In this document: piece by piece, positions 2,085-24,107 of the stretch | How positions within the stretch are numbered: position 1 is the stretch's first letter | Layout: the number at the start of each line of letters is the position of its first letter | Assembly (NCBI RefSeq): GCF_031195445.1 | Contig: NZ_CP133480.1 | Coordinates: 3,402,501 to 3,466,500, forward strand | Origin: Acuticoccus sp. MNP-M23 | Lineage (GTDB): Bacteria; Pseudomonadota; Alphaproteobacteria; Rhizobiales; Amorphaceae | Length of the DNA: 64,000 nucleotides | Reading direction: 5' to 3' | The notes under the pieces: model-generated | Told to the model about the DNA's origin: nothing | Seen by the model: the letters and a program-made list of their open reading frames with translations, nothing else | Database searches by the model: none | Made by a program: the position numbers and the translations under genes

Positions 2085-3407
2085 ATGGATGCACGGGTGA
2101 ACCGGCCGAACGACCTCGACGCGTTCTGGATGCCCTACACGGCCAACCGCGCCTTCAAGGCCGCGCCGCGCATGTGCGTATCCGCCAAGGACATGCACTA
2201 CACAACCGACGATGGCCGCAAGATCCTCGACGGCAGCGCCGCACTTTGGTGCGTGAATGCCGGCCACGCGCGGCCGCGCATCGTGGAAGCGGTGCAGCAG
2301 CAGGTGGCGACGCTGGACTTCGCCCCGTCCTTCCAGTTCGGCCACCCCCAGGCGTTCACGCTGGCCTCCCGGCTTGCGGGCATGTTTCCGGACGGGCTCG
2401 ACCATGTGTTCTACGCCAATTCCGGGTCGGAGGCGGTGGACAGCGCGCTGAAGATCGCGCTTGCCTACCACCGCGCGCGCGGTGAGGGCGGCCGGGTCCG
2501 GTTGATCGGGCGTGAGCGCGGCTATCACGGCTCGGGCTTTGGCGGGACGGCGGTCGGCGGCATCGTCAAGAACCGCATCCAGTTCGGCGCGGCTGTGCAG
2601 CCGGTGGACCACATGCGCCACACCCATCTGGCGGAAAACGCGTTCAGCCGCGGCTGCCCGGCCCATGGCGCGGACCTTGCCGACGATCTGGAGCGCATGG
2701 TTGCGCTGCACGATGCCTCGTCGATCGCGGCCGTCATCGTCGAGCCGATGGCAGGCTCCACCGGGGTTCTGCTGCCGCCGGTCGGCTACCTGAAGCGCCT
2801 TCGCGAAATATGCGACCGTCACGGCATCCTCCTCATCTTTGACGAGGTGATCACCGCCTTCGGCCGGCTCGGCACCGCCTCCGCATCCGATTATTTCGGC
2901 GTGACGCCCGACCTCATCACCCTTGCCAAGGGGCTGACCAACGCCACCGTGCCCATGGGCGCCGTGATTGCTTCCTCGCACATCTACGACACGGTGCTGG
3001 CGGCGGCCGATGCGCCCATCGAGTTCTTCCACGGCTACACCTACTCGGGCCATCCGCTGGCCTGCGCCGCAGCCCTTGCCACCCTCGATACCTACGAGGA
3101 GGAGGGACTCTTTGCCCGTGCCGCCGCCCTGGCGCCGCTGTGGGAGGAGCGCGTCCACAGCCTGCGCGAGCGGCGCAACGTCGTCGATATCCGCAATCTC
3201 GGCCTTGTGGCCGCGTTCGAGCTTGCGCCGCGGCCGGATGCGCCGGGTGCCCGCGGGCTGGAAGCCGTCGCGCGCGCATTCGAGGCTGGGCTGATGGTCC
3301 GGGTGACGGCGGATATCATCGCGCTGTCGCCGCCGTTGATCGTGTCGGAAGACCAGATCGACGAGATGGTCGGGATTGTCGGCGACGTGATCGACGCCAT
3401 CCAGTAG
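2085..3407 (+). CDS. Class III PLP aminotransferase, omega-amino acid:pyruvate type
   Basis: The 440-residue protein is a fold-type I, class III transaminase, close to beta-alanine/omega-amino acid:pyruvate aminotransferases. Seen in sequence: SGSEAVDSALK for phosphate binding, GYHG, FDEVITAFGR with the PLP-pyridine Asp253, and Lys282 in LAKGLTNA as the internal aldimine lysine. The ATG at 2085 was preferred because AGGAAG sits 8 bases before it; the GTG at 2076 overlaps that site. It is the last gene of the dgo operon, 38 bases after kdgK, and may consume pyruvate made by DgoA, but its amino donor cannot be read from sequence. A terminator follows. Confidence 0.85.
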   Translation: MDARVNRPNDLDAFWMPYTANRAFKAAPRMCVSAKDMHYTTDDGRKILDGSAALWCVNAGHARPRIVEAVQQQVATLDFAPSFQFGHPQAFTLASRLAGMFPDGLDHVFYANSGSEAVDSALKIALAYHRARGEGGRVRLIGRERGYHGSGFGGTAVGGIVKNRIQFGAAVQPVDHMRHTHLAENAFSRGCPAHGADLADDLERMVALHDASSIAAVIVEPMAGSTGVLLPPVGYLKRLREICDRHGILLIFDEVITAFGRLGTASASDYFGVTPDLITLAKGLTNATVPMGAVIASSHIYDTVLAAADAPIEFFHGYTYSGHPLACAAALATLDTYEEEGLFARAAALAPLWEERVHSLRERRNVVDIRNLGLVAAFELAPRPDAPGARGLEAVARAFEAGLMVRVTADIIALSPPLIVSEDQIDEMVGIVGDVIDAIQ

Positions 3408-3550: not shown

Positions 3551-4708
3551 TTACAGAAGGTTGCGGCCGGCCAGATTCTGCATCAGGGCGCGGGTGCCGA
3601 AGGTCCACGGGGCGGCCTTGGTCGACAGCGTCACGCGGTTGATGAGAGCGCCCAGTGCGGGGGTTTTGATCTTCACGAGGTCGCCTTCGTGGTGGGTGAA
3701 ACCCTTGCCTTCGCCGTCACGGTCCTTGGTGGGGGCAAACATGGTGCCGCAATAAAGCACGAGCCCGTCCGGGTACTGGTGGTGGGACCCGATGGTGGCG
3801 GCCACGAGTTTGTCCGGCGAGCGGCTGATCTCGGCCATGGACGAGCGGCCTTCGAGGCGGAAACCGTCGAGACCTTCCACCACCATGGCAAGGTCGGCGG
3901 TGGCGACGTCTTCGGGGACGAACGCGCCGTCATAAAGGCGGATGAACGGGCCGAGGGAGGCCGACGCGTTGTTGTCCTTCGCCTTGCCGAGGAGGAGGGC
4001 GGAGCGCCCTTCCACATCGCGCAGGTTCACGTCGTTGCCGAGGGTCGCGCCGACCGTGGTGCCGTCGGAGCGGACCACCAGCACGATCTCGGGTTCAGGG
4101 TTGTTCCACGTGGAGACCGGGTGGATGCCGACGTTCGCGCCGTGCCCGACTGCCGACATCGGCTGCGACTTTGTAAAGATCTCCGCGTCAGGCCCGATGC
4201 CCACCTCTAGATATTGCGACCAGACGCCTTTTTCCTGCAGCACGGCCTTGAGGGCCATCGCCTCGTCGGAACCGGGCGTGAGCTGGGAGAGGTCTGCGCC
4301 GATCACGTCGACGATTTCGGTGCGTAGTGCTGCGGCGCGGCTCATGTCGCCGCGGGCCTGCTCCTCGATGACTCGCTCCAGAAGGCTCGTCACGAAGGTG
4401 ACGCCGGACGCCTTGATCGCCTGAAGGTCGATCGGGGCCAAGGGGTGCGGCTTGTCGGTATCGCGCGTTGTCTCGTCTGCATTGTCGAAAAGGGCGTCGG
4501 TGCTGGTAAAGCTCTCGCCGGGCGCACTGGCCGCAATATCGGCCGGGGCGGTTGCCTCGGTCACGTCGCGCATCGTCGCGAATTCGCGGCTGGTGATGTC
4601 CACCACGTCGCCGCCGCGCACTGCGACCACGGAAGGGCCGATGCCCGGGCGCCAGACGCGGCCGACAAGGGCGCCTTCGGTTTGGGGGAGGGCTTGGGTC
4701 ATGTCCAT
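3551..4708 (-). CDS. Fumarylacetoacetate hydrolase family protein
   Basis: The 385-residue protein belongs to the FAH superfamily of metal-dependent C-C hydrolases and dehydratases. The C-terminal FAH fold is visible from about residue 165: the PEPEIVLV stretch with Glu205 and Glu207 and the GNDVNLRD stretch with Asp226 are the expected Mg2+ ligands. Its length and its roughly 160-residue N-terminal region match the FAH-family proteins found in sugar-acid clusters, some of which are 2-keto-3-deoxy-acid dehydratases, rather than short FAHD1-type proteins. The ATG at 4708 has GGAG 9 bases upstream. It follows an NAD(P)-dependent dehydrogenase on the same strand, and together they probably process a keto acid; the substrate is unknown. 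Confidence 0.75.
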   Translation of the reverse strand: MDMTQALPQTEGALVGRVWRPGIGPSVVAVRGGDVVDITSREFATMRDVTEATAPADIAASAPGESFTSTDALFDNADETTRDTDKPHPLAPIDLQAIKASGVTFVTSLLERVIEEQARGDMSRAAALRTEIVDVIGADLSQLTPGSDEAMALKAVLQEKGVWSQYLEVGIGPDAEIFTKSQPMSAVGHGANVGIHPVSTWNNPEPEIVLVVRSDGTTVGATLGNDVNLRDVEGRSALLLGKAKDNNASASLGPFIRLYDGAFVPEDVATADLAMVVEGLDGFRLEGRSSMAEISRSPDKLVAATIGSHHQYPDGLVLYCGTMFAPTKDRDGEGKGFTHHEGDLVKIKTPALGALINRVTLSTKAAPWTFGTRALMQNLAGRNLL

Positions 4709-4786: not shown

Positions 4787-5662
4787 TCAGCCGAGCTTGT
4801 CGGCCACGGCGGGTTCCAGCCGGCGGGATACGCGAAGGTCCCCGAAGCCCGCGTCGACGGCGGCTTGCGTGGTGCCGGCGACGGCTGCGGCAAGCGGGGA
4901 GATTTTGCCGGTGATGGCTTCGGACAATTCGGCGTAGTAGCGCGCATCCTTGGCGCTGTTGGCCATGGAGAAGGCGTGGCCGTCAAAGTCGCCGGCGAGG
5001 GCCGGGGGCACCACCTTTTCCAGCGTGCCGGAGCGGGCCGCGCCGCGCTGCATGATGCCGTGCAGCTTGTCCCAGTCCACCCCGGCGTGACGAGCCGTGG
5101 TGAAGGCTTCGGCCAGAAGCAGCACCATGCCCTGCGTCACGTAATTGTTGATGAGCTTGGCGGTGTGTGCGGTGCCGGCCGCCCCGAAATACTCCACATG
5201 GGCGGACCAGAGCGCCACAACCTCGCGGGCCTTTGCCTCAAACGGCGCGTCGGCCCCGAGCAGCGTTGCCAGCTTGCCGGCAGCAGCTTCCGGCGGGCCG
5301 CCCGCGATGGGCGCGTCGGCAAAGCCGATGCCCCGCTCGGCGAAGCCATCGGCAAGACGGCGGGTCAGCACCGGGTCGGACGTCGAGGTGTCGATGATGA
5401 GGTGGTTTTCGCGAAGCCCCGGATCCAGCTTCTGGAGGACGGCCTCGACTGCGGGAGCATCGCTGACGCAAAGGACGATGACATCCGCTTCGCGGGCCAG
5501 CGTTTCGAGGTCGGGGACCTCTAGTGCGCCAGCGGCGACCAGTCGCTCCACGCCTGCGCGGTTGCGGTGGGCGGTCACCACAAGCTGCTGGCCGCCCTTG
5601 AGCGCGCACGAGGCCATGCCTTCGCCCATCATGCCTGCCCCGACGAATCCGATTGTCGTCAT
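4787..5662 (-). CDS. NAD(P)-dependent oxidoreductase, 3-hydroxyisobutyrate dehydrogenase family
   Basis: The 291-residue protein is a beta-hydroxyacid dehydrogenase. It has an N-terminal dinucleotide fold with GFVGAGMMGEGM (5-16), the DAPIAGGPPEAAAG substrate-binding segment (116-129), and Lys169 in AKLINNYV as the catalytic lysine. Family members oxidise 3-hydroxyisobutyrate, tartronate semialdehyde or other beta-hydroxy acids. It is the first gene of a two-gene minus-strand unit, 78 bases ahead of the FAA-hydrolase-family gene, and faces the sugar-acid operon. Linkage to that operon suggests a tartronate-semialdehyde or sugar-acid role, which is inference only. Confidence 0.75.
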   Translation of the reverse strand: MTTIGFVGAGMMGEGMASCALKGGQQLVVTAHRNRAGVERLVAAGALEVPDLETLAREADVIVLCVSDAPAVEAVLQKLDPGLRENHLIIDTSTSDPVLTRRLADGFAERGIGFADAPIAGGPPEAAAGKLATLLGADAPFEAKAREVVALWSAHVEYFGAAGTAHTAKLINNYVTQGMVLLLAEAFTTARHAGVDWDKLHGIMQRGAARSGTLEKVVPPALAGDFDGHAFSMANSAKDARYYAELSEAITGKISPLAAAVAGTTQAAVDAGFGDLRVSRRLEPAVADKLG

Positions 5663-6381: not shown

Positions 6382-7965
6382 CTAGAAGCCGACCGCGTTG
6401 CCGTCCTTGCGGTGGTCCGAGCCGGCGACGTAACCGTCGTCCGTTTTCATGATGAGCTGCGCGCCGCCGAAACCGAAGGCATTGTCGGGCGCCTCGCGCG
6501 AGATCTGGTGGCCCTTTGCTTCCAGCGCCTCGATGGTGGCGGCGGGAACGTCCCACTCCACCGCCACGCCCCGGCCGGAGGTGAAGCGCCAGCGCGGCGC
6601 ATCGCTCGCCGCCTGGGGCGACTGGCCGAAGATCATCGTGCGCACCAGCATCTGCACATGGCCCTGGGCCTGCATCGGACCGCCCATCACGCCATAGCTC
6701 ATCAAGGGCGCACCGTCCTTCATGGCGAAGGCGGGGATGATGGTGTGGAACGGGCGCTTGTTGGGGCCCACCTCATTGGGATGACCCGGCGTCTTCACGA
6801 AGCCGAAGCCGCGATTTTGCATGTGAATGCCGGTGCCGGGCACCACAACACCGGAACCGAAGCCCGAATAGTTGGACTGGATGTAGGAGATCATCCGCCC
6901 CGAGGCATCGGCCGCGGTGAGGTATACCGTGCCGCCCTCTTTGGGCGCGCCGGCCCCCGGTTCGCCCGCGCGGTCCGGGTCGATGAGTGCAGCGCGGCTC
7001 TTGCAGTAGGCGGGATCGAGCAGCGCGTCCGGGCGCATGGTCATGGTGGCGGGGTCGGACACATAGGCGTGGGCATCGGCAAGGCCGAGCTTCAGCGCCT
7101 CGATCATCAGGTGCATGCCCTCGGGGCTGTCGGGGTGGTGCGCCTCGATGTCGAGGTGCTCCAGGATGCCGATTGCCATCAGCGCGGCAATGCCCTGGCC
7201 GTTGGGCGGGATTTCGTGAAGCGTGGTGCCGCGCAGGGTGTTCGAGATAGTGCCGCACCAGTCTGCGGTGTGGTTCGCCATGTCGGCTGCCGTCAGCACC
7301 GCGCCGTTTGCCTTGGCGGCCGCCTCGATCGCCTGAGCAAGCTCGCCGCGATAGAACGCCTCGCCCTTGGTGCTGGCAATCAGCTCCAGCGTCCTTGCCA
7401 GCGCTTCGTTGCGGTAAAGCTCACCGGCGGCGGGGGCGCGGCCACCTGGCATGAAATTGTCGGCAAAGCCCGGCTGTTCGGACAGGATCTTTGCGCCCGC
7501 TGCCCATAGCGCGGCAATGGTCGGCGACACCGAAAAGCCGTCGCGCGCGTAGCCGATGGCCGGGCCGAACAGGGTTTCGAACGGCAGCGCGCCGAACTTG
7601 TCGGACAGCGCGACCCAGGCGGAGACGGCGCCCGGGACGGTCACACTGTCCCAGCCGCGCTGGGGCATGGGGCCGTCGCCGGCAAAGCGCTCCGGCGTCC
7701 ACGCGGCAGGCGAGCGACCCGAGGCATTGAGGCCGTGCAGCTCCGCACCGTCCCACAGGATCGCGAACGCGTCGCTGCCAAGGCCGTTGCCGGTGGGCTC
7801 GACCACGGTGAGCGTGATGGCGGCGGCAAGGACCGCGTCGATGGCGTTGCCGCCCTGCGCCAGCATCCGCAGCCCGGCAGAGGCCGCCAGCGGCTGTGAG
7901 GCGGAGACCATGTTGCGCGCAAGGACCGGGACCCGGCGGACGGCGTAGGGAGTGTCGAAATTCAT
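6382..7965 (-). CDS. Gamma-glutamyltransferase family protein (first paralogue)
   Basis: The 527-residue protein is an Ntn-hydrolase of the gamma-glutamyltransferase family, which self-cleaves before a threonine that becomes the nucleophile. The expected Thr346 lies in GGTVYLTAAD, with the correct spacing to the following Asp. The N-terminal GGNAIDAVLAAAITLTVVEP motif and the GVMGGPMQAQGH glycine loop near the C-terminus are intact. There is no signal peptide, so it should be cytosolic, unlike periplasmic Ggt. The start at 7965 (MNFDTPYAV) was preferred; an upstream ATG at 8007 would overlap the preceding dehydrogenase by 20 bases. It is the last gene of the unit led by the TRAP transporter. 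The substrate is unknown; glutathione-type or amide compounds are possible. Confidence 0.8.
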   Translation of the reverse strand: MNFDTPYAVRRVPVLARNMVSASQPLAASAGLRMLAQGGNAIDAVLAAAITLTVVEPTGNGLGSDAFAILWDGAELHGLNASGRSPAAWTPERFAGDGPMPQRGWDSVTVPGAVSAWVALSDKFGALPFETLFGPAIGYARDGFSVSPTIAALWAAGAKILSEQPGFADNFMPGGRAPAAGELYRNEALARTLELIASTKGEAFYRGELAQAIEAAAKANGAVLTAADMANHTADWCGTISNTLRGTTLHEIPPNGQGIAALMAIGILEHLDIEAHHPDSPEGMHLMIEALKLGLADAHAYVSDPATMTMRPDALLDPAYCKSRAALIDPDRAGEPGAGAPKEGGTVYLTAADASGRMISYIQSNYSGFGSGVVVPGTGIHMQNRGFGFVKTPGHPNEVGPNKRPFHTIIPAFAMKDGAPLMSYGVMGGPMQAQGHVQMLVRTMIFGQSPQAASDAPRWRFTSGRGVAVEWDVPAATIEALEAKGHQISREAPDNAFGFGGAQLIMKTDDGYVAGSDHRKDGNAVGF

Positions 7966-7987
7966 GAAAGACCGGGCTTCTGGCTGG

Positions 7988-8887
7988 TTATTCGGCAAGG
8001 AGGGCAAGGCCCGCTTCGAGAAGGCGGACCGAGGCTCCGGGGGTCTTATAGGCGACGTGAGGGGTCAGCGTCACGTTTGGTGCTGCGAGAAGCGGGGCGC
8101 CGGGGCCGAGCGGCTCCTCGGCGAACACGTCGAGCGCGGCGTGGGCAAGGTGCTCCGATTGCAGCGCCGCAATGAGCGCCGTTTCATCGACCAGCGCGCC
8201 GCGGGCCGTGTTGACGAGGATGGCGCCTTGTTTCATCCGCGCCAGCGCGTCCGCGTCGATGAGGCCGGTGGTCTCCGCCGTCAGCGCCAGATGGAGGGAA
8301 ACGATGTCGGCCTTCGCCAGCACATCGTCCAGCGGCATGAAGGTGGCAGGGAGGTTGTCCGGCGGGGTGCGGGCATAGGCGATCAGGTTGAGGCCGAGGG
8401 CTGCCCCAAGGCTGATCATCTCCGCCCCAATTCCGCCGGCGCCGATGACGCCAAGGGTTGCGCCGGAAAGCTCCGTCCCCACCTGCGGCACCCACTCGCC
8501 GCGCTTCAGCGCTGCATCCTGCGCCGCAACCTGGCGTGCGGCGGCAAACATCAGCGCCAGCGCGTGCTCGGCCACGCTCCGGTCGCCGTAGCCCTTGATG
8601 GTGCGCACTTCGATGCCGTGGGCTGCGGCAGCGTCAAGGTCGATATAGCTGGCAGCGCCGGTGCCGAGGAAGACGATCCGCTCAAGCGCCGGAAGCGCCG
8701 CGAAAAGAGCAGCATCCATCACCGTGTGACCGTTGAGGACACGGGCGGCATCGCCGATGATTGCGGGAAGCTCGGCCGGCGCCGGGTCGCCTTCGTGGAT
8801 GCGAAGGCCCGGCACCGCAGCAAGGCGTGCCGGCGTCAGCAGCGCGTGCATTGCCGCACTGCAGTCGACGTAGACGGGGGCGGTCAT
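7988..8887 (-). CDS. D-isomer-specific 2-hydroxyacid dehydrogenase
   Basis: The 299-residue protein is an NAD(P)-dependent dehydrogenase of the D-lactate/phosphoglycerate dehydrogenase group, which interconverts 2-keto acids and D-2-hydroxy acids. The Rossmann motif is GVIGAGGIGAEM (146-157). The catalytic triad is visible as Arg229 (NTARGALVD), Glu258 (EEPLG) and His277 (TPHVAY). Its start overlaps the end of the second gamma-glutamyltransferase gene by four bases (ATGA), so the two are translationally coupled. It may reduce or oxidise a keto acid released by the neighbouring amide-cleaving enzymes; this is inferred from context. Confidence 0.85.
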   Translation of the reverse strand: MTAPVYVDCSAAMHALLTPARLAAVPGLRIHEGDPAPAELPAIIGDAARVLNGHTVMDAALFAALPALERIVFLGTGAASYIDLDAAAAHGIEVRTIKGYGDRSVAEHALALMFAAARQVAAQDAALKRGEWVPQVGTELSGATLGVIGAGGIGAEMISLGAALGLNLIAYARTPPDNLPATFMPLDDVLAKADIVSLHLALTAETTGLIDADALARMKQGAILVNTARGALVDETALIAALQSEHLAHAALDVFAEEPLGPGAPLLAAPNVTLTPHVAYKTPGASVRLLEAGLALLAE

Positions 8888-10566
8888 CGCCCGGCAGTAC
8901 CGCTGGCACGGCGCGGGTCGGCGCCGCCTTCGAGCCCACCATCGGCGCGCATTTCAACCGCGCAGAAGGTGCCGGCGAGGTAGGTGAATTCCTCCCACAC
9001 CTCCACGGTGTGGCCGAGGGCGGACAGTTCGGCGCGCACGCTTTCGGGAATGCGCTTTTCGGCGCGCACCAGCCCGGGATAGCTTTCGTGCGGGGCAAAG
9101 CTCGACGGAAAGCTGTAGCTCGCCACCCGCGGCGCCTCGATCGCGTCCTGCAGATCCATGCCGTAGACGACGCGGTTGAGGAGAACCTGCGCCATGGTCT
9201 GGATCTGCACGTCGCCGCCGGGGGTGCCGAACGGCATCGCGTGCCCTTCCGGCCCGACCCAGATGGCGGGGTTGGGCGTCAGGCGAGGCCGCTTGCCGGG
9301 CGCAACGCCGCTTGGATGCGACGGGTCCGCCCAGCTCGCCGACCCGCGCGAGGACGGGACCAGCCCGGTCCCCGGAATGACGGGGCTGTTGTAGGACACG
9401 TCCGACGGCGTTGCCGAAAACGCGAGCCCGCCGGAATCCACCACCGCAATATAGGACGTATCCCCGTGGGTGGCGCCGCCGGTGCCGTCGCCAGCCTTGC
9501 CGGCCGTGCCGATGCCGGGGGCCGGCATGTCCGGCGAAGCGCTCTCGGGATCAAACGCCTTGAGCCGCTCGCGCGTGTAGGCCTCGGACAAGAGCGTCTC
9601 GACCGGAACGTCGACGAAATTGGGATCGCCGAGCACCGCCTCGCGGTCCGCGAAGGCAAGCTTCACGCATTCGATCAGCCGGTGGTAGTAGACGGCGCTG
9701 CCCCGCTCGATGCCGCGCCACTCGAAGCCGTCCAGCAACTGCATGACCTCGCCGAGGAACGGGCCCTGGCAGTAGGCGCCCGAGCACAGCACCGTGCCGC
9801 CTGCAAACCTTGCCGGCAGCGGCTTGCCGATCTCCACGCGGTAGTTGGCAAGGTCGGCCGCCGACATGAGACCGCCTTCCGCCTCGTGAAAGCGCACGAT
9901 GGCCGCGGCAATGTCGCCTTCGTAGAAGGCCGCACGGGCCGCGGCGAGGCCGCCCGCGCGGTCGCCTGCGGCCCCGCTCTCGCAATCGGCCATGTACTGG
10001 AGGCTCGCCGCGAGATCGGTCTGGACGAACTTTGCGCCGGTGGCCGGGGGGCGGCCGCCGGGGAGATAGATGGCGGCGTTCTGCGGCCACTTGTTGTAGT
10101 CGGCCTCGTGGGCGGCAATCAGCTTGTGCTTCAGCCAGTGCATGGCGAAGCCGTCGCGCGCCAGCGTGATGGCGGGGGCTGCAACTTCGGCAAAACTCAT
10201 GGTGCCGAAGCGGGCGAGCGCCTCGATCCATGCCGCAGGCGCTGCCGGAATGACCGTGCGCAGGATGCCGAGCGGGATCTGCCCGCCGTGCTCGCGCATG
10301 AAAAGGGTCGGGTCGAGGGCGGCGGGCCAGCCGCCGAGGCCGTCGATGGTGGTGGCGGTGCCGTCCGGCTCGCGCACCATGATTGGCGCCACGCCGGCAA
10401 CGTTGACGAGGTCGCCCTGGACGACGCCGAGCACCAGCCCGCCGGCGACCCCGGCGTCGGCTGCGTTGCCCCCCGCTTCCAGAATGTCGTCGGCGGCTCT
10501 GGCGGCGAGGGCATGGCCGGCGGACGCCATGTGGTGGTGGCCGATGGCGCGGTATCCCTTGGGCAT
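8884..10566 (-). CDS. Gamma-glutamyltransferase family protein (second paralogue)
   Basis: The 560-residue Ntn-hydrolase is only distantly similar to the first paralogue. The predicted autocleavage and nucleophile residue is Thr370 in HGDTSYIAVVD, and the N-terminal motif EAGGNAADAGVAGG and the GTPGGDVQIQT glycine loop are present. It has no export signal. Besides gamma-glutamyl hydrolase or transferase, this family includes oxamate amidohydrolase (HpxW), so an amide such as oxamate is an alternative substrate. It sits 17 bases downstream of the TRAP permease gene and overlaps the 2-hydroxyacid dehydrogenase start, making import followed by cytosolic amide cleavage the natural reading. Confidence 0.8.
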   Translation of the reverse strand: MPKGYRAIGHHHMASAGHALAARAADDILEAGGNAADAGVAGGLVLGVVQGDLVNVAGVAPIMVREPDGTATTIDGLGGWPAALDPTLFMREHGGQIPLGILRTVIPAAPAAWIEALARFGTMSFAEVAAPAITLARDGFAMHWLKHKLIAAHEADYNKWPQNAAIYLPGGRPPATGAKFVQTDLAASLQYMADCESGAAGDRAGGLAAARAAFYEGDIAAAIVRFHEAEGGLMSAADLANYRVEIGKPLPARFAGGTVLCSGAYCQGPFLGEVMQLLDGFEWRGIERGSAVYYHRLIECVKLAFADREAVLGDPNFVDVPVETLLSEAYTRERLKAFDPESASPDMPAPGIGTAGKAGDGTGGATHGDTSYIAVVDSGGLAFSATPSDVSYNSPVIPGTGLVPSSRGSASWADPSHPSGVAPGKRPRLTPNPAIWVGPEGHAMPFGTPGGDVQIQTMAQVLLNRVVYGMDLQDAIEAPRVASYSFPSSFAPHESYPGLVRAEKRIPESVRAELSALGHTVEVWEEFTYLAGTFCAVEMRADGGLEGGADPRRASGTAGR

Positions 10567-10583
10567 GGCAGTCCTTTCGTGGG

Positions 10584-12551
10584 TCAGGCAGCGGCAGCTT
10601 CAGGCCGGGGCGCGCTGAGGAACTGGCGGCCGATCACCACCGCAAACAGGGCAATGCCGACCGCCGTGGTCCACCAAGAATGGTGGAACAGGCAAAATGC
10701 CGCCGGAAGCAGCGCAATCCGCTCGACCACGTGGAGGCGCCGCCGGAACGTGCCTTCCAGCGCGATGTTGATGGCGACGAGCGCAACGCCCGCCAGAAGT
10801 GCGGTGAGCAGCTGGAGCCAGAACGGTGCGCCAAGGCCCAGAAGCTCGGGCCGGGCGATGAACAGCATCGGCAGGAGAAAGCCCGGCAGGCCGAGACGCA
10901 CGGCGGTGAACGAGGTTTTCATGAAAGGCGCTTCGGCAATGTTGGCGGCCACCAGGCAACCCACCGCAACAGGCGGCGTGATGGCCGACATGTTGGCAAG
11001 GTAGAAGACGAAGAGGTGCGCCGCCAGCACCGGCACCCCAAGGTCGATCAGGGCCGGAGCGCCCAGCAGCGCCACCAGGATGTACGCGGCCGACGTTGGC
11101 ATTCCGACGCCGAACACGAGGCAGGTCAGCGCAGCGATGAACACCAGCGGCCACAGGCTTTCGCCCGCGAGGTCAAGCATCATGTAGGAGAGCTTTTGCG
11201 CAAGGCCCGTGGCGGACAGCATCTCCACCATGATGGAGATGACCGCCACCACAACGGCAACCTGCGCACCGGAGTGGGCCCCGCGCGCCAGACCGCCGAG
11301 GATCGGCGCGCCCATGGATTTCACCATCGCGACCGGTGTGCGCCAGCCGAGAACGACGCGCTTCACCACTTCCAGTGCCAGCGTGATTTCCACCGCACAA
11401 AGCGCCGCCGTGTTGGCGGGGCTGCCGGTGAGGAGGAGCCAGATGAGCACGGTGACGGCGAGGATCGGGTGGCCGTGCATCAGGAACGCCCGGAGCATGG
11501 AGACGTCTGTCAGCGGGAGGCCCGCCACCTGACGCGCTTCGTGGGTGGCCCCAAGGTCGAGCTTCACCGCCTGAATGTGGACAGCAAACATCAGGTAGCC
11601 GTAGTAGATGATCGCCGGCAGCGTCGCCGCCGCAATGATCTCCACATACGGAATGCCGGTGATGCCGACGATCAGGAACGCGGCCAGCCCCATTTTCGGC
11701 GGGGTGATCTGCCCGCCCGCGGATGCAACGGCCTCCACGGCGCCGGCAAAATGCGGCTTGAAGCCGAAGCGCTTCATCATCGGAATGGTGAAGGCGCCGG
11801 TGGAGGCCACGTTGGCCATGGTGCTGCCCGAAATCATGCCCATGAAGCCGGAGCCGATCACCGCGGCCTGCGCCGGACCGGCGCGCGACTTGCCGGACAG
11901 CGCAAAGGCGATCTTCATCAGAAGGTCGAGCCCGCCGGTGGACTTCAGGAGCCCTGCAAACAGCATGTAGATGAAGATCGTCGACGCGGATACGGCGGTC
12001 AGACCGCCCAGAAGGCCGCGGAAATAGGGGATCGACGTGTAGCCGATCAGCCGCTCAAGGTTGAAGCCGTTGTGGTAGAGCAGGTCGCCCGGCATGAGAA
12101 AGCCGAAATAGCCGTAGAGCAGCCCCAGCACCGCAATCCCCGGAATGATGAGCCCCCATTCGCGCGCCGCCACAAACAGCGACAGGGCGAGGAGAAGCAC
12201 GGCCACAATCAGGTCGGGGGTGTTGGGGAAAAAGGCGCGGTCGTCGATCAGCGCCTGATACTGGCTGAGCATGTAGAAGAACGGCACCAGCGCCACCAGC
12301 GCCAGAAGGGACAGAAGCCGGCGCGCCCAGCGGCGCTCCACCGGCGTTGCAACAATCAGCCCCAGGAGCGACAGGAGCAGCGCCAGCGTGAGGTGCATCG
12401 CCTTGAAGAGACCAGACGGGAAATGGAACGTCTGGATCTGGTACATGTGGAGCACCGCCATCCCCACGCCGACGATGCCGAACAGGGCCGCAGCAGGGCC
12501 CGCCGTCTTGTCGGTGAAAAGACGCGAAAATGATTTCAGCGCAGACGGCAT
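10584..12551 (-). CDS. TRAP transporter fused permease (TAXI type)
   Basis: The 655-residue inner-membrane protein fuses the small 4-helix and large 12-helix TRAP permease subunits, as is usual for TAXI-type TRAP systems. Hydrophobic segments run through the whole length after the first 30 residues. The DctM-like core shows GSGFMGMISGSTMANVASTG and, in the second half, FGVGMPTSAAYILVALLGAP. The ATG at 12551 (MPSALKSF) was chosen; the frame extends upstream to 12647, but that part is low-quality sequence between genes. Its partner binding protein is encoded 130 bases upstream on the same strand. The transporter is expected to be driven by an ion gradient; the substrate is unknown. Confidence 0.9.
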   Translation of the reverse strand: MPSALKSFSRLFTDKTAGPAAALFGIVGVGMAVLHMYQIQTFHFPSGLFKAMHLTLALLLSLLGLIVATPVERRWARRLLSLLALVALVPFFYMLSQYQALIDDRAFFPNTPDLIVAVLLLALSLFVAAREWGLIIPGIAVLGLLYGYFGFLMPGDLLYHNGFNLERLIGYTSIPYFRGLLGGLTAVSASTIFIYMLFAGLLKSTGGLDLLMKIAFALSGKSRAGPAQAAVIGSGFMGMISGSTMANVASTGAFTIPMMKRFGFKPHFAGAVEAVASAGGQITPPKMGLAAFLIVGITGIPYVEIIAAATLPAIIYYGYLMFAVHIQAVKLDLGATHEARQVAGLPLTDVSMLRAFLMHGHPILAVTVLIWLLLTGSPANTAALCAVEITLALEVVKRVVLGWRTPVAMVKSMGAPILGGLARGAHSGAQVAVVVAVISIMVEMLSATGLAQKLSYMMLDLAGESLWPLVFIAALTCLVFGVGMPTSAAYILVALLGAPALIDLGVPVLAAHLFVFYLANMSAITPPVAVGCLVAANIAEAPFMKTSFTAVRLGLPGFLLPMLFIARPELLGLGAPFWLQLLTALLAGVALVAINIALEGTFRRRLHVVERIALLPAAFCLFHHSWWTTAVGIALFAVVIGRQFLSAPRPEAAAA

Positions 12552-12645
12552 CGGCGGTGTTCCATGACAGTCAGCCGGTGCGCCCCAAGGCGCCCGGCTG
12601 ATCCGAGGGGAAAGTGGCGGCCCGGCTGCGCTGCGGGGCGGCGGC

Positions 12646-12664
12646 AAGCGAAGCCGCTTCGCAG
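12646..12664 (-). other. Intercistronic hairpin between TAXI binding-protein and permease genes
   Basis: GCGAAG and CTTCGC form a short perfect stem with a 3-base loop (12648-12662) in the 130-base gap between the two transporter genes. There is no T-run on the minus strand, so it is more like an mRNA-stabilising or attenuating hairpin than a full terminator. Such structures often keep binding-protein mRNA in excess over permease mRNA. Confidence 0.35.
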
Positions 12665-12681
12665 CGAACCGGCAGGGCGGC

Positions 12682-13671
12682 TCAGCTTGCGATCGTCAGA
12701 TCGTCGCGCCAGATGCCGCGCTCCTTGAAGTACTGGGCGGCACCCGCATTCACCGGCGCGTTCTTGATCATGTAGCGCACGGCAAATTCCGGATCGATGC
12801 TCTCAAGTTCCATGGAGACCTTGCGCACCGCCCCGGCGTTATCGAACACCGCCTTGGTGACCTCGTAGCCCACCTCGTCGCTCACCTTGGGTGCCGTGCC
12901 CAGAAGACCAATGGTGGCGGTGCACGGCGTCATTTCGCTAACGCCTTCCCACAGCGCGGGGTCGGCCTCGTAGGGGGAGATGCCGGGGTTGGTCTCGTTG
13001 GCGAAGTCGATGGCGTCCTTGGGCCAGCCGAGGCCGCGCACATCCACCGATGCCATCAGCTCCAGGAGAAGCGGCGAGGGACGGCCGCCGACCAGAAGCG
13101 CCGGAACGCAGTCGAGCGAGCCGGCACGGAAGGCATCGTACACTTCGCGCCAGGAGCCGAAATTCCAGTTGATCTCGTCCTTCACGCCCAGGAAGTCGGT
13201 CATCATCTCCCAGGTCCGGCGGGTGGAGCCGCCGGCGGTGGAGGGGCTGACGCGCTTGCCGCCAAGGTCGCGCGCGGTTTCGATGTCGCTGTCGGCGCGC
13301 ACCATCGGCAGGGTCGCCCACGCGGTGTAGGCGAACGACTGCTCGACCGCGATCGGCTCGCGGAAGCGGCCGCGACCGGCCATCGCGTCCGCATAGTCGT
13401 TGGAGGCGGTCTGGCCGAAGTCGATCATGCCCTGGCCGATCAGCTGCAGGTTCTCCGCACCGCCGGAGGTGGACATGGAGGACGTGCGCAGGTCGCTGTA
13501 CTTGTTCACGATCGCCGAGATGGTCTCGATGATGACGTAGCCGGTGGAGCCGAGGCTTGCGGAACCGAACAGCACGGGCGCCTGCGCAAAGGCGCGGGAG
13601 ACGCCGGACGCTGCGATGGGCAGGGCTGCGCCTGCGGCGAGAAGCTGACGGCGATTGATCGTTGCGGACAT
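12682..13671 (-). CDS. TAXI-family TRAP transporter solute-binding protein
   Basis: The 329-residue protein is the periplasmic receptor of the TRAP system. Residues 1-30 form a twin-arginine-type export signal (NRRQLLAAGAALPIAASG, then AFAQA). The mature part starts with PVLFGSASLGSTGY and contains GGAENLQLIGQGMIDFGQT, typical of the TAXI family (Imp/TRAP glutamate-binding type). The ATG at 13671 has a strong AGGGGGA site 7 to 8 bases upstream; an earlier ATG at 13746 would run into the operator region. It is the first gene of the minus-strand unit and is divergent from the XRE-cupin regulator, which probably controls it. Confidence 0.92.
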   Translation of the reverse strand: MSATINRRQLLAAGAALPIAASGVSRAFAQAPVLFGSASLGSTGYVIIETISAIVNKYSDLRTSSMSTSGGAENLQLIGQGMIDFGQTASNDYADAMAGRGRFREPIAVEQSFAYTAWATLPMVRADSDIETARDLGGKRVSPSTAGGSTRRTWEMMTDFLGVKDEINWNFGSWREVYDAFRAGSLDCVPALLVGGRPSPLLLELMASVDVRGLGWPKDAIDFANETNPGISPYEADPALWEGVSEMTPCTATIGLLGTAPKVSDEVGYEVTKAVFDNAGAVRKVSMELESIDPEFAVRYMIKNAPVNAGAAQYFKERGIWRDDLTIAS

Positions 13672-13710
13672 GACGTGTCCCCCTGTTGTAGATTCAACGG
13701 CGTGGCACAG

Positions 13711-13770
13711 TCTCGTGAAAATCCATGCGTGTTTTTTCAGCGTCATGAAAATTTATGCCTCGTTTTTTGG
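13711..13770. promoter_or_regulatory. Tandem 30-bp direct repeat in divergent promoter, candidate operator
   Basis: Two imperfect copies lie exactly 30 bases apart: TCGTGAAAATCCATGCGT from 13713 and TCATGAAAATTTATGCCT from 13743, each followed by a T-rich run. The second copy contains the near-palindrome CATGAAAATTTATG (10 of 14 positions). The repeats lie between the start codons of the binding-protein gene (13671) and the XRE-cupin regulator (13814), the expected place for an operator serving both genes. A/T content is well above the surroundings. Binding is inferred from position and symmetry. Confidence 0.55.
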
Positions 13771-13813
13771 TAGAGGCGGTGTAGACACGAGTCAAGAATA
13801 CAAGGGGAATGCC

Positions 13814-14410
13814 ATGCAGGCTCGGAACGGCGAAGGCAGTGCGGATCCTTATGATCTGCGCGTCGGCCAACGCCTCCGCTCCCGGCGCAAGGCACGCCGG
13901 ATGACGCTTGACGAGGTGGCCAGCGCCAGCGCGATCTCGACGGCGCAATTGTCGATGATCGAGCGTGGCCTCGCCTCGCCCTCGGTGAAGGGCCTGCGCG
14001 AGATCTGCCGGACGCTCGACATCTCGGTCGCATGGCTGTTCGAGGAGGAGGATGCGGACGAAGCGCCCGAGCAGGGCATTGTCGTGCGCCGCCACCGTCG
14101 CAAGCGGTTCGATCTGTCCAAGAAGAAGATGCACAAGGAGCTGCTCACGCCGGATCTCGACGGCAAGCTGCAGTTTCTGTGGATCGAGATGCAGCCCGGC
14201 GGCTCCAGCGGGCCCGAGAAATATTTTCACGAGGGGGAAGAGACCGGTCTCATCCTTTCGGGACGCATGCGCCTTGTGGTCGAGGACGATACCTTCACGC
14301 TGGAAGAGGGGGACAGCTTCCGCTTTGACAGCCACCGCCCGCACCGCTTCGAAAATGCCGGCGACACCCCTTGCAAGGTGCTGTGGGTCTGCACCCCGCC
14401 ATTTTACTAA
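13814..14410 (+). CDS. XRE-family transcriptional regulator with C-terminal cupin domain
   Basis: The 198-residue protein has a helix-turn-helix domain at about 17-77 (GQRLRSRRKARRMTLDEVA, then STAQLSMIERG) and a cupin barrel at about 115-195 (EKYFHEGEETGLILSG, LEEGDSFRFDSHRPHRFEN). This architecture is common in regulators of amino-acid and polyamine catabolism such as PuuR, where the cupin senses the substrate. The ATG at 13814 has AAGGGGAA about 5 bases upstream. It is divergent from the TAXI transporter operon and is followed after 16 bases by a PuuB-like oxidase, so it probably controls both directions. Confidence 0.9.
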   Translation: MQARNGEGSADPYDLRVGQRLRSRRKARRMTLDEVASASAISTAQLSMIERGLASPSVKGLREICRTLDISVAWLFEEEDADEAPEQGIVVRRHRRKRFDLSKKKMHKELLTPDLDGKLQFLWIEMQPGGSSGPEKYFHEGEETGLILSGRMRLVVEDDTFTLEEGDSFRFDSHRPHRFENAGDTPCKVLWVCTPPFY

Positions 14411-14426
14411 AGCATGAGAGCCGCTG

Positions 14427-15737
14427 ATGATTGCTGAGATGATGCGCCCGGCGATGCCGCCCTCGCTGTGGGCCGAGACCGTGCGCGAAACATTCGATGC
14501 GCCACCGCTGACGGGCGACGCGGACGTGGACGTGGCCATTGTCGGCGCCGGGTTCACGGGCCTCAGCACTGCGCTGCATCTGGCGCGCGGCGGGGCGCGG
14601 GTGGTGGCGCTGGACGCCGGCGAGCCCGGCTGGGGCGCCTCCGGCCGCAATGGCGGTCAGGTGATTGCGGGGCTCAAGGATGATCCGGATGCGCTGGACG
14701 CAAGGTTCGGCGCGGCCGATGGCGGGTTGATGGCAGAGACGGCCGGCAGCGCCCCTGCCTTGGTGTTCAGCCTGATCGAGGAATTCGGGATCGACTGTGA
14801 CGTCCAGAAGGCGGGCTGGATCCAGCCGGCCCATTGCGACAGTGCGCTGGCAACCGTCCGCCGCCGCTGCGGCGAGTGGGCGGCAAGGGGCGCGCCCGCG
14901 CGGATGCTGGACGCCGGCGAGGTCGCAACGCTGCTGGGCAGTCGCGCCGATGCCTACCGCGGCGGCTGGCTGGACGAGCGCGGCGGTGCAGTGCAGCCGC
15001 TGGCCTATGCGCGCGGCCTTGCGCGGGCCGCTGCCGCCTGCGGAGCCGCGGTTCACGGCCGCTCGCGCGCCACGGCGCTGACCCGGGAGGGGGAACGCTG
15101 GCGCCTCGACCTTGAAAATGGCGTGACCGTGCGGGCCGACCAGATCGTTCTTGCCACCAATGGCTACACCGATGGTCTCTGGCCCGGCCTCAGGCAGACC
15201 GTGGTGCCGGTGTACAGCTTCCAGACCGCTTCGCAGCCTCTGTCTCACAACGCGCGGGCGGCGATCTTTCCGAACGACCATGTCGCCTCCGACACGCGAC
15301 GGCTCCTGTGGTATTTCCGGCTGAGCCGGGAGGGCCGGCTGGTGATGGGCGGACGCGGACCCTACCGCGAGACCCCCGGCGAGGACGCCGCCCGGATGGC
15401 GCTGAAAAACCTGGAGACGCTGTTTCCGGAGGCCGGACCGCTGGAGCCGTCGTTCAGCTGGGCAGGGCGCGTTGCGATGACGCGGGACCATTTTCCCCAT
15501 CTCCATCAGCTTTCGAGGGGGCTGTGGGCGGGGCTCGGTTTCAACGGGCGCGGCGTTGCGATGGGAACGATGATGGGCCGCTGCCTTGCGCAGGCGGTGC
15601 GCGGGGAAACGCCCGGCATGCCGGTGACGCGGCCGGAACGCTTCAAGTTTCACGGGTTCGGCCGCTGGGGCGTTGCCGCCTACGCCGCACTTTACCGCCG
15701 GCGCGATGCGCGGGAGGCCGCGGACCCCTCGCTTTGA
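14427..15737 (+). CDS. FAD-dependent oxidoreductase, gamma-glutamylputrescine oxidase (PuuB)-like
   Basis: The 436-residue protein is a DAO-family flavin oxidase. The FAD dinucleotide motif VAIVGAGFTGLSTALHLARGG covers 36-56, followed by GASGRNGGQV (70-79), which in PuuB-like enzymes contacts the flavin. Late motifs GRVAMTRDHFPHLHQL and GLGFNGRGVAMGTMMGR match the group. PuuB oxidises gamma-glutamylputrescine; related proteins oxidise other secondary or primary amines. It follows the XRE-cupin regulator by 16 bases and lies beside two gamma-glutamyltransferase-family genes, which makes a gamma-glutamylated amine an attractive substrate. Other amines remain possible. Confidence 0.8.
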   Translation: MIAEMMRPAMPPSLWAETVRETFDAPPLTGDADVDVAIVGAGFTGLSTALHLARGGARVVALDAGEPGWGASGRNGGQVIAGLKDDPDALDARFGAADGGLMAETAGSAPALVFSLIEEFGIDCDVQKAGWIQPAHCDSALATVRRRCGEWAARGAPARMLDAGEVATLLGSRADAYRGGWLDERGGAVQPLAYARGLARAAAACGAAVHGRSRATALTREGERWRLDLENGVTVRADQIVLATNGYTDGLWPGLRQTVVPVYSFQTASQPLSHNARAAIFPNDHVASDTRRLLWYFRLSREGRLVMGGRGPYRETPGEDAARMALKNLETLFPEAGPLEPSFSWAGRVAMTRDHFPHLHQLSRGLWAGLGFNGRGVAMGTMMGRCLAQAVRGETPGMPVTRPERFKFHGFGRWGVAAYAALYRRRDAREAADPSL

Positions 15738-16424
15738 TCAACGCGCCTGGCGCAGCGCGCGGGCAAGGTCTGGCAGGGTTTCGGCGAAATGGTCGCAGCC
15801 GTCGCCGGGGGCAAGGTCCGTGGTCTGGCCGGGGCCGTGCTCGAGGGGGCGAGGGATGAACATGGTCCTGAAGCCGCAGGCGCGGGCGGCGGCAAGGTCG
15901 CTGTTGTGCGCGGCAACCATCGCGCATTCTTCGGGCTGCAGCATCAAAAGCGCGGCGGCGCGCAGGTAACTCTCCGGCTGGGGCTTGTAGTGGCCGGTGG
16001 TTTCGGCGCCCATGATGGCGTCCCAGCGCCAGCCATTGTGGCGCGCAAGGTCAACCATCAGCCGCACATTGCCGTTGGAATGGGGCGCAAGGACAAAGCG
16101 CTCGCCCAGCATCGCCAGCCCCTCGGTCACATCGGCCCAGGGGCTGAGCCTGTGCCAGAACAGCGTCATCCCACGCCGCTCGTCGTCGGAAGCGCTGATG
16201 CCGAAATCGTCGAGCGTGGCGTCCAGGCTTTCCCGGTGGAGGGTGTCGAGCGGGACGAACGCCCGTGCCCCGCTGCGCACGGCTTCCATGGAGGGCTGGT
16301 AGCGCCCGCGCCAAGCATCGGCAAATGCCGCGCCCTGGTCGGTGAACGGCGCCATCTGGTCAGCAACGGACGTGCGCCAGTCCACCAGGGTGCCGAACAC
16401 ATCGAACAACAGCGCCTTGATCAT
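15738..16424 (-). CDS. Haloacid dehalogenase, type II
   Basis: The 228-residue HAD-superfamily protein carries the type II haloacid dehalogenase pattern: nucleophile Asp8 in FDVFGTLVDWR, the Ser/Asn motif HSNGNVRLM, Lys in GHYKPQP, and the AAHNSDLAAARACGFRTMFIPRP C-terminal motif. L-2-haloacid dehalogenases convert 2-haloacids to D-2-hydroxy acids, but many genomic members act on other small acids or phosphates. The ATG at 16424 (MIKALLFDVF) was preferred to 16448 because the family starts just before the nucleophile. Its stop is directly adjacent to that of the PuuB-like gene (convergent). Confidence 0.8.
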   Translation of the reverse strand: MIKALLFDVFGTLVDWRTSVADQMAPFTDQGAAFADAWRGRYQPSMEAVRSGARAFVPLDTLHRESLDATLDDFGISASDDERRGMTLFWHRLSPWADVTEGLAMLGERFVLAPHSNGNVRLMVDLARHNGWRWDAIMGAETTGHYKPQPESYLRAAALLMLQPEECAMVAAHNSDLAAARACGFRTMFIPRPLEHGPGQTTDLAPGDGCDHFAETLPDLARALRQAR

Positions 16425-20040: not shown

Positions 20041-20574
20041 TCAGCTCACCGTCACAGCGACGGGGGTGTCGAGCGCAATGAGCTCGGTGTCCGGGGCAGC
20101 GCCGCGCCACATCGCCATCAGAAACTTGCCGCCCTCGCTTAATGCGGTGAGGCCGGCATGCCAGACGCCGGGGCGGTAGATCACCGCCTGGCCGGGCGTT
20201 GAGGCGAACGCGGTGAGCGTCGTCTCGTCCGGCTTGCCGTCCGCGCCCGCGCGGGCCACCAGCACCAGCGCCGTTGCGCCCGCCACCGGCAGGAACGCCT
20301 GCTCGGAGTGGGGGTGCTGCTCCAGCTTGGTGATGGACAGCGCGCCGTGCGTGGCCGCAAGATCGAACCACGACAACACCATCACCGCATCGTCCTCCGT
20401 CCGCGCAAGAGCGGTCGCAATGTCGTGCCGCGTGGCGCGGCCTTCATTGACGCGGGCCGGCGCATCGAGCGGCATCACACGGCCGAAGGGGGCAAAGCTG
20501 CCCGCCGACAAAGGGGCTGTGCGAAGGGTCCGGGGGGAGGTGATCTGATCGAGGTTTTCAGTTGTTGAAGGCAT
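20041..20574 (-). CDS. allA: Ureidoglycolate lyase
   Basis: The 177-residue protein matches the AllA family, which releases urea from ureidoglycolate to give glyoxylate in purine/allantoin breakdown. It has the cupin-like core with LEQHPHSEQAFLPV (84-97) and GQAVIYRPGVWHAGL (128-142). The ATG at 20574 was chosen; a longer open frame upstream overlaps the divergent regulator and does not look like protein. No other allantoin genes (allantoinase, allantoate amidohydrolase) are in the window. It is divergent from a FadR-type regulator with a candidate operator 49 bases before the start. Confidence 0.85.
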   Translation of the reverse strand: MPSTTENLDQITSPRTLRTAPLSAGSFAPFGRVMPLDAPARVNEGRATRHDIATALARTEDDAVMVLSWFDLAATHGALSITKLEQHPHSEQAFLPVAGATALVLVARAGADGKPDETTLTAFASTPGQAVIYRPGVWHAGLTALSEGGKFLMAMWRGAAPDTELIALDTPVAVTVS

Positions 20575-20622
20575 GGCGGTCCGTAAGGAAATCGGGATGA
20601 AAATGGCGTGGTGCACGAACGG

Positions 20623-20641
20623 ACTAGCCGGTCTGGCCAGT
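20623..20641. promoter_or_regulatory. Candidate FadR-type operator between allA and the regulator gene
   Basis: A 19-bp inverted repeat, ACTAGCCGGTCTGGCCAGT, matches itself in 7 of 9 base pairs. It has the GGTCnGrCC-like core typical of FadR-group sites. It lies 49 bases before the allA start and 49 bases before the regulator GTG. Fourteen of its bases (20628-20641) recur with two mismatches in front of the TRAP operon at 25991-26004. Confidence 0.55.
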
Positions 20642-20689
20642 GCCGTGTCAGATGGGTGGCGCGAACAAGATCGTGCGGGGAGAAGTATT

Positions 20690-21376: not shown

Positions 21377-21381
21377 TCGCT

Positions 21382-23072: not shown

Positions 23073-23088
23073 GACCCCTCCTGTTCGA

Positions 23089-24060: not shown

Positions 24061-24107
24061 GAATGGCTCGCTGGTTGTTGGGAGATGTTGGGTGTTTCGG
24101 CGGCGCG

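Follow-up and report, generated by a model that had tools for sequence, protein, structure and literature searches.

The stretch of 64,000 nucleotides analysed here (the window; Acuticoccus sp. MNP-M23, contig NZ_CP133480.1, positions 3,402,501 to 3,466,500) carries, at 6382–16424, a TAXI-family TRAP importer together with two hydrolases of the gamma-glutamyltransferase (GGT) fold, GGT1 and GGT2, a 2-hydroxyacid dehydrogenase (DH2), an XRE-cupin regulator and an oxidase. We read these genes as a regulated uptake-and-catabolism unit, by which a small carboxylated amide or 2-oxoacyl compound would be imported, cleaved in the cytosol, and its pieces oxidised or reduced. We give this reading an even chance of being correct. 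Judged by its sequence, the unit is real, and it is rare and patchy among genomes.

The evidence consists of the genes present, their recurrence in other genomes, the fold predicted for GGT2 and the absence of gamma-glutamyl-binding residues. We infer the class of ligand, the order of the steps, the direction in which DH2 works and the operator role of a repeat as follows. The importer would take up a small carboxylated compound, and GGT2, a cytosolic enzyme predicted to cleave itself at Asp369/Thr370, would cut its amide or 2-oxoacyl bond. The flavin adenine dinucleotide (FAD) oxidase would oxidise the released amine or amino acid, and DH2 would reduce a 2-oxoacid. The XRE-cupin protein would control the divergent promoters, perhaps via 30-bp repeats, and GGT1 would be an accessory hydrolase joined to the operon in this genome.

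All genes listed in the preliminary description were recovered in place and fell into the families named there by profile score (Table 1). Both hydrolases retain the nucleophile threonine and lack an export signal, as had been described: neither has a hydrophobic N-terminus, while the genome's own canonical GGT does. On the minus strand, the order of transcription is TAXI, TRAP permease, GGT2, DH2 and GGT1. With spacings as small as those found (TAXI–permease 130 bp, permease–GGT2 17 bp, a GGT2/DH2 overlap of 4 bp and DH2–GGT1 22 bp), the five genes likely form a single transcription unit. As DH2 overlaps the stop of GGT2, the steps of these two enzymes are probably linked. The regulator starts 142 bp from TAXI and is followed by the oxidase after a gap of 16 bp, both on the plus strand.

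Table 1. Features of the unit, with positions in the window
Feature	Position	Strand	Profile score or other evidence
TAXI-family TRAP solute-binding protein	12682..13671	-	TIGR02122 110.7 bits vs cut-off 84.35; hydrophobic N-terminus
Fused TRAP permease	10584..12551	-	TIGR02123 499.9 bits vs cut-off 320.65
GGT2, GGT-fold N-terminal nucleophile (Ntn) hydrolase, LmbA-like branch	8884..10566	-	PF01019 346.7 bits; nucleophile Thr370 after Asp369
DH2, D-2-hydroxyacid dehydrogenase family	7988..8887	-	PF02826 194.2 bits
GGT1, GGT-fold Ntn-hydrolase, 2NLZ/HpxW-like branch	6382..7965	-	PF01019 479.8 bits; nucleophile Thr346
XRE-cupin regulator, divergent from TAXI	13814..14410	+	HTH_3 and Cupin_2
DAO-family FAD oxidase	14427..15737	+	PF01266 234.6 bits
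HAD type II	15738..16424	-	TIGR01428 over cut-off
Candidate operator, two head-to-tail 30-bp repeat copies (73% alike)	13708..13767		between TAXI and XRE

Recurrence was assessed in 101 relatives and in 385 genomes of the class, with GGT2 at E≤1e-80 in both sets and TAXI at E≤1e-60 in the relatives and E≤1e-45 in the class. As the genome searches scored a subset of the candidates in each genome, and as the relatives set was limited to E≤1e-60, some matches may have been missed. The comparison took in stretches of at most 20 kb around the TAXI matches, with genes from a codon-model caller. GGT2 matches were found in 6 of the 101 relatives and 43 of the 385 class genomes, and TAXI matches in four and nine, respectively (own genome counted in each). 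Together, the TAXI matches represent 12 distinct genomes. Phylum-wide, TAXI was matched at E≤1e-45 in one of 398 genomes, namely the own genome. No TAXI match was found in plasmid records at E≤1e-40; seven of these records held GGT2 relatives (36.6–55.0% identity).

The complete core (TAXI, permease, GGT2, DH2, XRE-cupin and oxidase) was present in three of the 12 TAXI genomes: the window and the loci L022 and L062. L022 belongs to the same genus, with core parts 66–83% identical to those of the window, and L062 to another taxonomic family (48–66%). DH2 adjoins GGT2 in both. Wherever TAXI, GGT2 and DH2 occurred together (three genomes), oxidase and regulator were present as well; in L062, the oxidase sits past DH2, at the opposite end of the operon. 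A GGT2-family gene adjoined the TAXI–permease pair or lay at most four genes away in half of the TAXI genomes (6/12: the window, L022, L062, L100, L128 and L123). The number of TAXI–GGT2 adjacencies expected by chance was 0.03, a rough guide only, as gene numbers were assumed. The preliminary description had proposed the import of a compound and its cytosolic cleavage by an Ntn-hydrolase of the GGT fold, and the co-occurrence of importer, GGT2, DH2, regulator and oxidase in two other genomes supports this.

L022 and L062, when aligned with the window, show on visual inspection one looser copy of the 30-bp repeat. The HAD gene, which lies on the strand opposite to the oxidase and faces it, was rejected as a core part, since the 20-kb stretches of L022 and L062 showed no such gene. 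FAH (3551–4708) and HIBDH (4787–5662, ending 719 bp from GGT1) were likewise rejected as parts of the unit, as neither was found in these stretches. All three are placed outside the core.

Other results weigh against a unit of this kind. Six of the 12 TAXI genomes had no GGT2-family gene nearby (in G186, one side lies past the contig end), and in three of those six, all from one genus, TAXI was accompanied by a thiamine-diphosphate enzyme and a glyoxalase-fold protein. For DH2, regulator and oxidase, close relatives lay alongside TAXI in just 3 of 12. Among seven other genomes of the genus, GGT2 was found in two (E≤1e-80) and TAXI in one (E≤1e-60). Moreover, the wider GGT2 family had no fixed context. 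This emerged when the direct surroundings of GGT2-family genes (near, at most two places; 133 of 159 proteins scanned) were set against more remote positions (far, five to nine places; 124 of 152 scanned), as the Pfam content differed little. The comparison omitted the window, L100, L123 and L128, which had been ascertained by discovery or by TAXI, and L097–L099. Binding-protein-dependent permeases were counted in 6 of 133 near vs 4 of 124 far proteins, NMT1_3 (TAXI-type) in 2 vs 3 and DAO in 4 vs 3. DctM (3 near) and 2-hydroxyacid dehydrogenases (4 near) were not among the 25 far-set families listed, for which the lowest listed count was 2. A general rule that the GGT2 family stands beside transporters was dropped, as the near and far contents were alike.

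Across L100, L123, L124, L126 and L127, the TAXI-TRAP genes often occurred with a thiamine-diphosphate enzyme (60–62% alike) and a Glyoxalase_3-domain protein, whether or not a GGT was present. The contig-end TAXI of G186 has a DAO-family gene nearby that is only distantly related to the oxidase (26% identity).

A midpoint-rooted tree of 47 rows, of which 41 were GGT2-family members, placed the six TAXI-linked GGT2s in two distant clades (support 100/99 and 100/100); two outgroup rows and G2_L098 had long branches. The pairing of TAXI and GGT2 is therefore old or arose twice. In the clade of the window's GGT2, a TRAP importer adjoined all four members, three of TAXI type and one of DctP type (L021). 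L021 (7966–17829) is from the same genus and carries the closest GGT2 relative (74%) with a DctP-type TRAP importer, M20 and HyuA/HyuB-family genes, and no TAXI. Loci of a marine lineage (L006–L014) have a GGT2 relative (52–54%) near enolase-superfamily and HAD genes. Where the contig reaches, D-glutamate cyclase-family and acetolactate-synthase-like genes are also nearby, and a coenzyme A (CoA)-transferase and an enoyl-CoA hydratase were recognised by eye. L065, L067 and L072 were taken as the same contigs as L006, L009 and L013, since their lengths agree.

GGT2, a hydrolase of the GGT fold, is probably not a gamma-glutamyltransferase, as judged from its profile score and its pocket. It scored 259.6 bits against TIGR00066, under the cut-off of 357.85 bits. 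Of the three other PF01019 proteins in the genome, L027 (573.0 bits) and L028 (386.3 bits) passed and L026 (283.3 bits) failed. Residues were compared in an alignment of 47 family members, including 41 GGT2-family rows, four GGT1-type rows and the paralogues L027 and L028. Of 45 loci, three (L064, L086 and L090) had no GGT2 call from the gene caller, and L081 was dropped from residue counts and tree for its 948-aa frame, leaving the 41 rows. In the Escherichia coli GGT, Arg114, Ser462 and Ser463 hold the glutamyl carboxylate, and Asn411, Gln430 and Asp433 the amino group, as far as the available part of the source describes it (PMC6769717). None of the 41 GGT2-family rows had arginine at the Arg114 site; leucine stood there in 32 of them, GGT2 itself included. 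The paralogues had arginine (L027) and methionine (L028). The Ser-Ser of the PLSSMXP motif is replaced by Leu-Thr in GGT2 and in most of its family.

Arginine was found instead at the Gln430 site (Arg407 in GGT2) in 40 of the 41 GGT2-family and all four GGT1-type rows, and also in HpxW, 2NLZ, 2I3O and LmbA2991 (printed alignments). The carboxylate-binding arginine may thus have shifted to the other side of the pocket, away from Arg114 in the large subunit and into the small subunit as Arg407. The nucleophile threonine was present in all 47 rows, and it was preceded by aspartate, giving an Asp-Thr cleavage site, in 39 of the 41 GGT2-family rows (Asp369-Thr370 in GGT2). The best PDB match of GGT2 by phmmer was 6J3A (LmbA2991). 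The AlphaFold2 (AF2) model of GGT2 had a predicted local distance difference test score (pLDDT) of 94.4 and matched LmbA2991 with a VIA-align Z of 51.7 and a root mean square deviation of 1.9 (35% identity over 550 residues). The next Z values were those of 2NLZ (49.9), the Bacillus licheniformis GGT (47.0) and the E. coli GGT (45.2).

These relatives bear on a narrower alternative, in which GGT2 would form an oxalyl-threonine, cleave an N-oxalyl amide (oxamate type) or the C-C bond of a 2-oxoacid, and free oxalate. We regard it as unlikely. LmbA2991 and then HpxW headed the matches to the catalytic half of GGT2 (92.9 and 87.1 bits), ahead of 2NLZ and the B. licheniformis GGT (52.6 bits each) and the E. 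coli GGT (36.1 bits), and LmbA2991 was also first by fold, although the Z values of other family members follow closely. The Asp-Thr site in the 39 rows points the same way, as it is reported to be conserved in LmbA-like proteins, which cleave a C-C bond, likely via an oxalyl-Thr intermediate (both from the available part of PMC5519988). HpxW frees oxalate and ammonium from oxamate (PMC5270733). Against this stands the fate of the product: a search for oxalyl-CoA decarboxylase gave nothing over the TIGR03254 cut-off in the own genome, G004, G006, G115, G157 or G477, nor in the genomes of L022 and L062. Two of the 13 genomes searched had one over the cut-off (G079 and G186). The hint at HpxW in the preliminary description fits the branch of the enzyme, but an oxalate product lacks the backing of such a decarboxylase over cut-off in the own genome.

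A catabolic form of LmbA-type chemistry would go one step further. The substrate delivered by the TAXI-TRAP importer would be an N-oxalyl or 2-oxoacyl compound, and the cytosolic Ntn-hydrolase acting on it would form oxalyl-threonine and would have had its pocket arginine moved from Arg114 to Arg407. We hold this to be unlikely. If true, these bacteria would break down nutrients by a reaction known from the making of antibiotics.

The preferred reading, of a carboxylated amide or 2-oxoacyl compound, also has to be weighed at the importer. The AF2 model of the window TAXI (pLDDT 88.0) matched solved TAXI structures with Z values of 29.4–32.2, and the next row was at 16.3. Gln93, the residue of VcGluP with the greatest weight for glutamate, has alanine as its equivalent in the TAXIs of the window, L022 and L062. 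The change Q93A weakens glutamate binding of VcGluP 990-fold, and Gln93 has an equivalent in just 54% of the TAXIs aligned, by the part of PMC11574862 available; therefore, the loss of Gln93 is not rare. VcGluP Tyr45 pairs with Gly44 in both alignments, and a one-residue shift of the loop, which allows two alignments, would pair it with Tyr45, a residue invariant in the TAXIs compared (12/12). Glutamate is a common TAXI ligand, and other TAXI systems import 2-oxoglutarate, 2-hydroxyglutarate or phthalate, in the accessible portion of PMC12344293. Given these known ligands, a non-glutamate acid is plausible for the window TAXI by analogy.

The preliminary description had proposed a gamma-glutamyl or amide substrate. 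On the gamma-glutamyl reading, the importer would take up a gamma-glutamyl compound or a glutamate derivative, and both hydrolases would strip the glutamyl group in the cytosol. We consider this quite unlikely, and a unit aimed at gamma-glutamyl compounds is disfavoured. Both GGT1 and GGT2 miss the TIGR00066 cut-off that L027 and L028 pass, the Arg114 and Ser-Ser residues are absent, and the window TAXI has alanine at the site of Gln93, where Q93A weakens glutamate binding in VcGluP. The E. coli R114L mutant, which has the leucine of GGT2, showed no detectable activity as far as the available text of PMC8062742 goes. On the other side, both hydrolases have the GGT fold, glutamate is commonly bound by TAXIs, and the GGT2 orthologue in L021 adjoins HyuA/HyuB hydantoinase/oxoprolinase-family genes. 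The same portion of PMC8062742 reports that extremophile GGTs without a signal, with a serine and a His-Thr like those of GGT1, hydrolyse gamma-glutamyl compounds. It also reports that the B. licheniformis GGT keeps 85% of its activity with R109S and 5% of its hydrolysis with R109L, and that activity roughly doubles when either serine of the pair is changed to alanine. Arginine at the Gln430 site is moreover shared by 2I3O, an extremophile-type GGT. Hence, the pocket sites alone are insufficient against gamma-glutamyl hydrolysis, above all for GGT1, for which the rejection is less firm.

The remaining core genes are less specific. DH2 keeps its family domains, and most of the PDB entries related to it are phosphoglycerate dehydrogenases and glyoxylate reductases. 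After its second nucleotide-binding strand, Arg-Thr was found by eye (Arg-Arg in L022 and Arg-Ser in L062); we take arginine at this position to be usual for reductases that depend on reduced nicotinamide adenine dinucleotide phosphate (NADPH). DH2 relatives (44–47%) were seen in another family of the order, in two settings: with M20 carbamoylase-family, Ldh_2 and D-glutamate cyclase-family genes (L132–L135), or with thiamine-diphosphate enzyme, D-amino acid dehydrogenase-like and Asp/Glu racemase-family genes (L131 and L138).

The oxidase belongs to the DAO family, which acts on amines and amino acids. It had been called PuuB-like, and this label did not hold: its best named model was L-pipecolate oxidase AmaA (320.6 bits, under the cut-off of 600), and its sole PDB match at E≤1e-10 was a glycine oxidase. 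Nor was the assignment of the regulator to the Puu type confirmed, as it reached 82.4 bits against the PuuR model with a cut-off of 211.

GGT1 also fell short of TIGR00066 (319.1 vs 357.85 bits). It matched 2NLZ with 468 bits, and its catalytic half was nearer to 2NLZ (177.4 bits) than to HpxW (95.4 bits). Serine stood at the Arg114 site in all four GGT1-type rows, and His-Thr replaces Ser-Ser in GGT1. Relatives with 66–68% identity were found in G115, G157 and G253, two of which are TAXI genomes. At E≤1e-80, GGT1-type genes were present in 12 of the 13 genomes searched; at E≤1e-150, a threshold chosen afterwards, GGT1 was matched in 8 of 190 class genomes including its own. Among the 12 TAXI genomes, it adjoined GGT2 in just two, that of the window and the distant one of L123, where a relative with 67% identity lies 14 bp from the GGT2 relative. 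The claim that the two Ntn-hydrolases are conserved together thus stands for L123 and fails for the other 10 of the 11 other TAXI genomes. As the GGT1 relative of G115 (68%) is located elsewhere in the genome, GGT1-type genes are common, and adjacency to GGT2 is limited to two genomes, GGT1 is read as accessory.

The same results bear on the view that TAXI-TRAP-GGT2-DH2 is real, and that oxidase, GGT1 and HAD lie next to it independently, without a common substrate. The separate GGT1 relative in G115, the frequency of GGT1-type genes, the oxidase at the other operon end in L062 and the lack of HAD in L022 and L062 all favour this view; we find it distinctly improbable, since oxidase and regulator were present in 3/3 genomes with TAXI, GGT2 and DH2, and GGT1 lies 22 bp from DH2 and, in L123, adjoins a GGT2 relative.

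Several further gene groups were seen. The nearest relative of GGT1 among the PF01019 paralogues of the genome is L026. About 6 kb from this paralogue, at 2014–2955 of L026, lies a gene related to an acetamidase/formamidase-family gene of L168 (57% identity, far under the FmdA cut-off). The L168 gene (10401–11351) stands directly behind a GGT1-type gene. Acetamidase/formamidase-like genes occurred in 5 of the 82 loci compared, in all five with a GGT1- or GGT2-type gene, and this co-occurrence weakly supports the theme of uptake and cleavage. A second set in the same genome (L028, G000:C1:749500-769400, at 9406–16098) has a GGT-family gene divergent from DctQ, DctM, a creatininase-family gene, DctP and a GhrA-like 2-hydroxyacid dehydrogenase, which scored under the GhrA cut-off. 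Its like make-up from other parts lends the theme weak support. In the window itself, ureidoglycolate lyase-family, GntR-type regulator, HpcH/HpaI-family aldolase, DUF6282, DctP and DctM genes cluster at 20041–25388, perhaps as another uptake set. An omega-aminotransferase lies at 2085–3407 (AptA model, 727.8 bits vs cut-off 500).

GGT-fold genes are readily labelled gamma-glutamyltransferase. The GGT2 group, with matches in 43 of the 385 class genomes, is without the glutamyl-carboxylate arginine in the 41 members examined. The seven plasmid GGT2 relatives were annotated as 'gamma-glutamyltransferase' (four), 'gamma-glutamyltransferase family protein' (two) or not at all (one). As the compact GGT2 is linked to an importer, the ligand of a single binding protein would name the substrate class for the group, and it would extend the ligand list of the poorly known TAXI family. 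No paper combining GGT, TAXI and a TRAP transporter was found in the literature covered, which leaves out most subscription papers.

The importer resembles the TAXI-TRAP systems VcGluP and TtGluBP, with family models over the cut-off and fold Z values of about 30. It differs from VcGluP in having alanine for Gln93, and its ligand may differ. The Puu pathway, by which gamma-glutamylated putrescine is broken down, likewise has an XRE-cupin regulator adjoining a DAO-family oxidase; however, the PuuR cut-off was missed here, and the oxidase is nearest to the AmaA model, also under cut-off. To our knowledge, no TAXI context has been described for extremophile/YwrD-type GGTs. These GGTs and 2NLZ, the Bacillus halodurans 'cephalosporin acylase', resemble GGT1 in the serine at the Arg114 site, the QNRG and FHT/YHT motifs and the missing signal (PMC8062742, as far as available), and the same portion of that source describes the physiological role of the extremophile GGTs as not elucidated. 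HpxW, an oxamate amidohydrolase (PDB 5HFT), ranks second in nearness of the catalytic half to GGT1 as well as to GGT2 and shares the arginine at the Gln430 site. Unlike the unit described here, it is tied to purine breakdown in the part of PMC5270733 available, and it is not the nearest solved relative by catalytic half, GGT1 being nearer to 2NLZ and GGT2 to LmbA2991. LmbA, Ant6 and LmbA2991, GGT homologues of 4-alkyl-L-proline biosynthesis, share with GGT2 the Asp-Thr site and a site 114 without arginine, and they provide its top PDB match. LmbA2991 is 35% identical to GGT2 and belongs to an actinobacterial antibiotic pathway, whereas GGT2 belongs to an uptake operon with an importer and a 2-hydroxyacid dehydrogenase.

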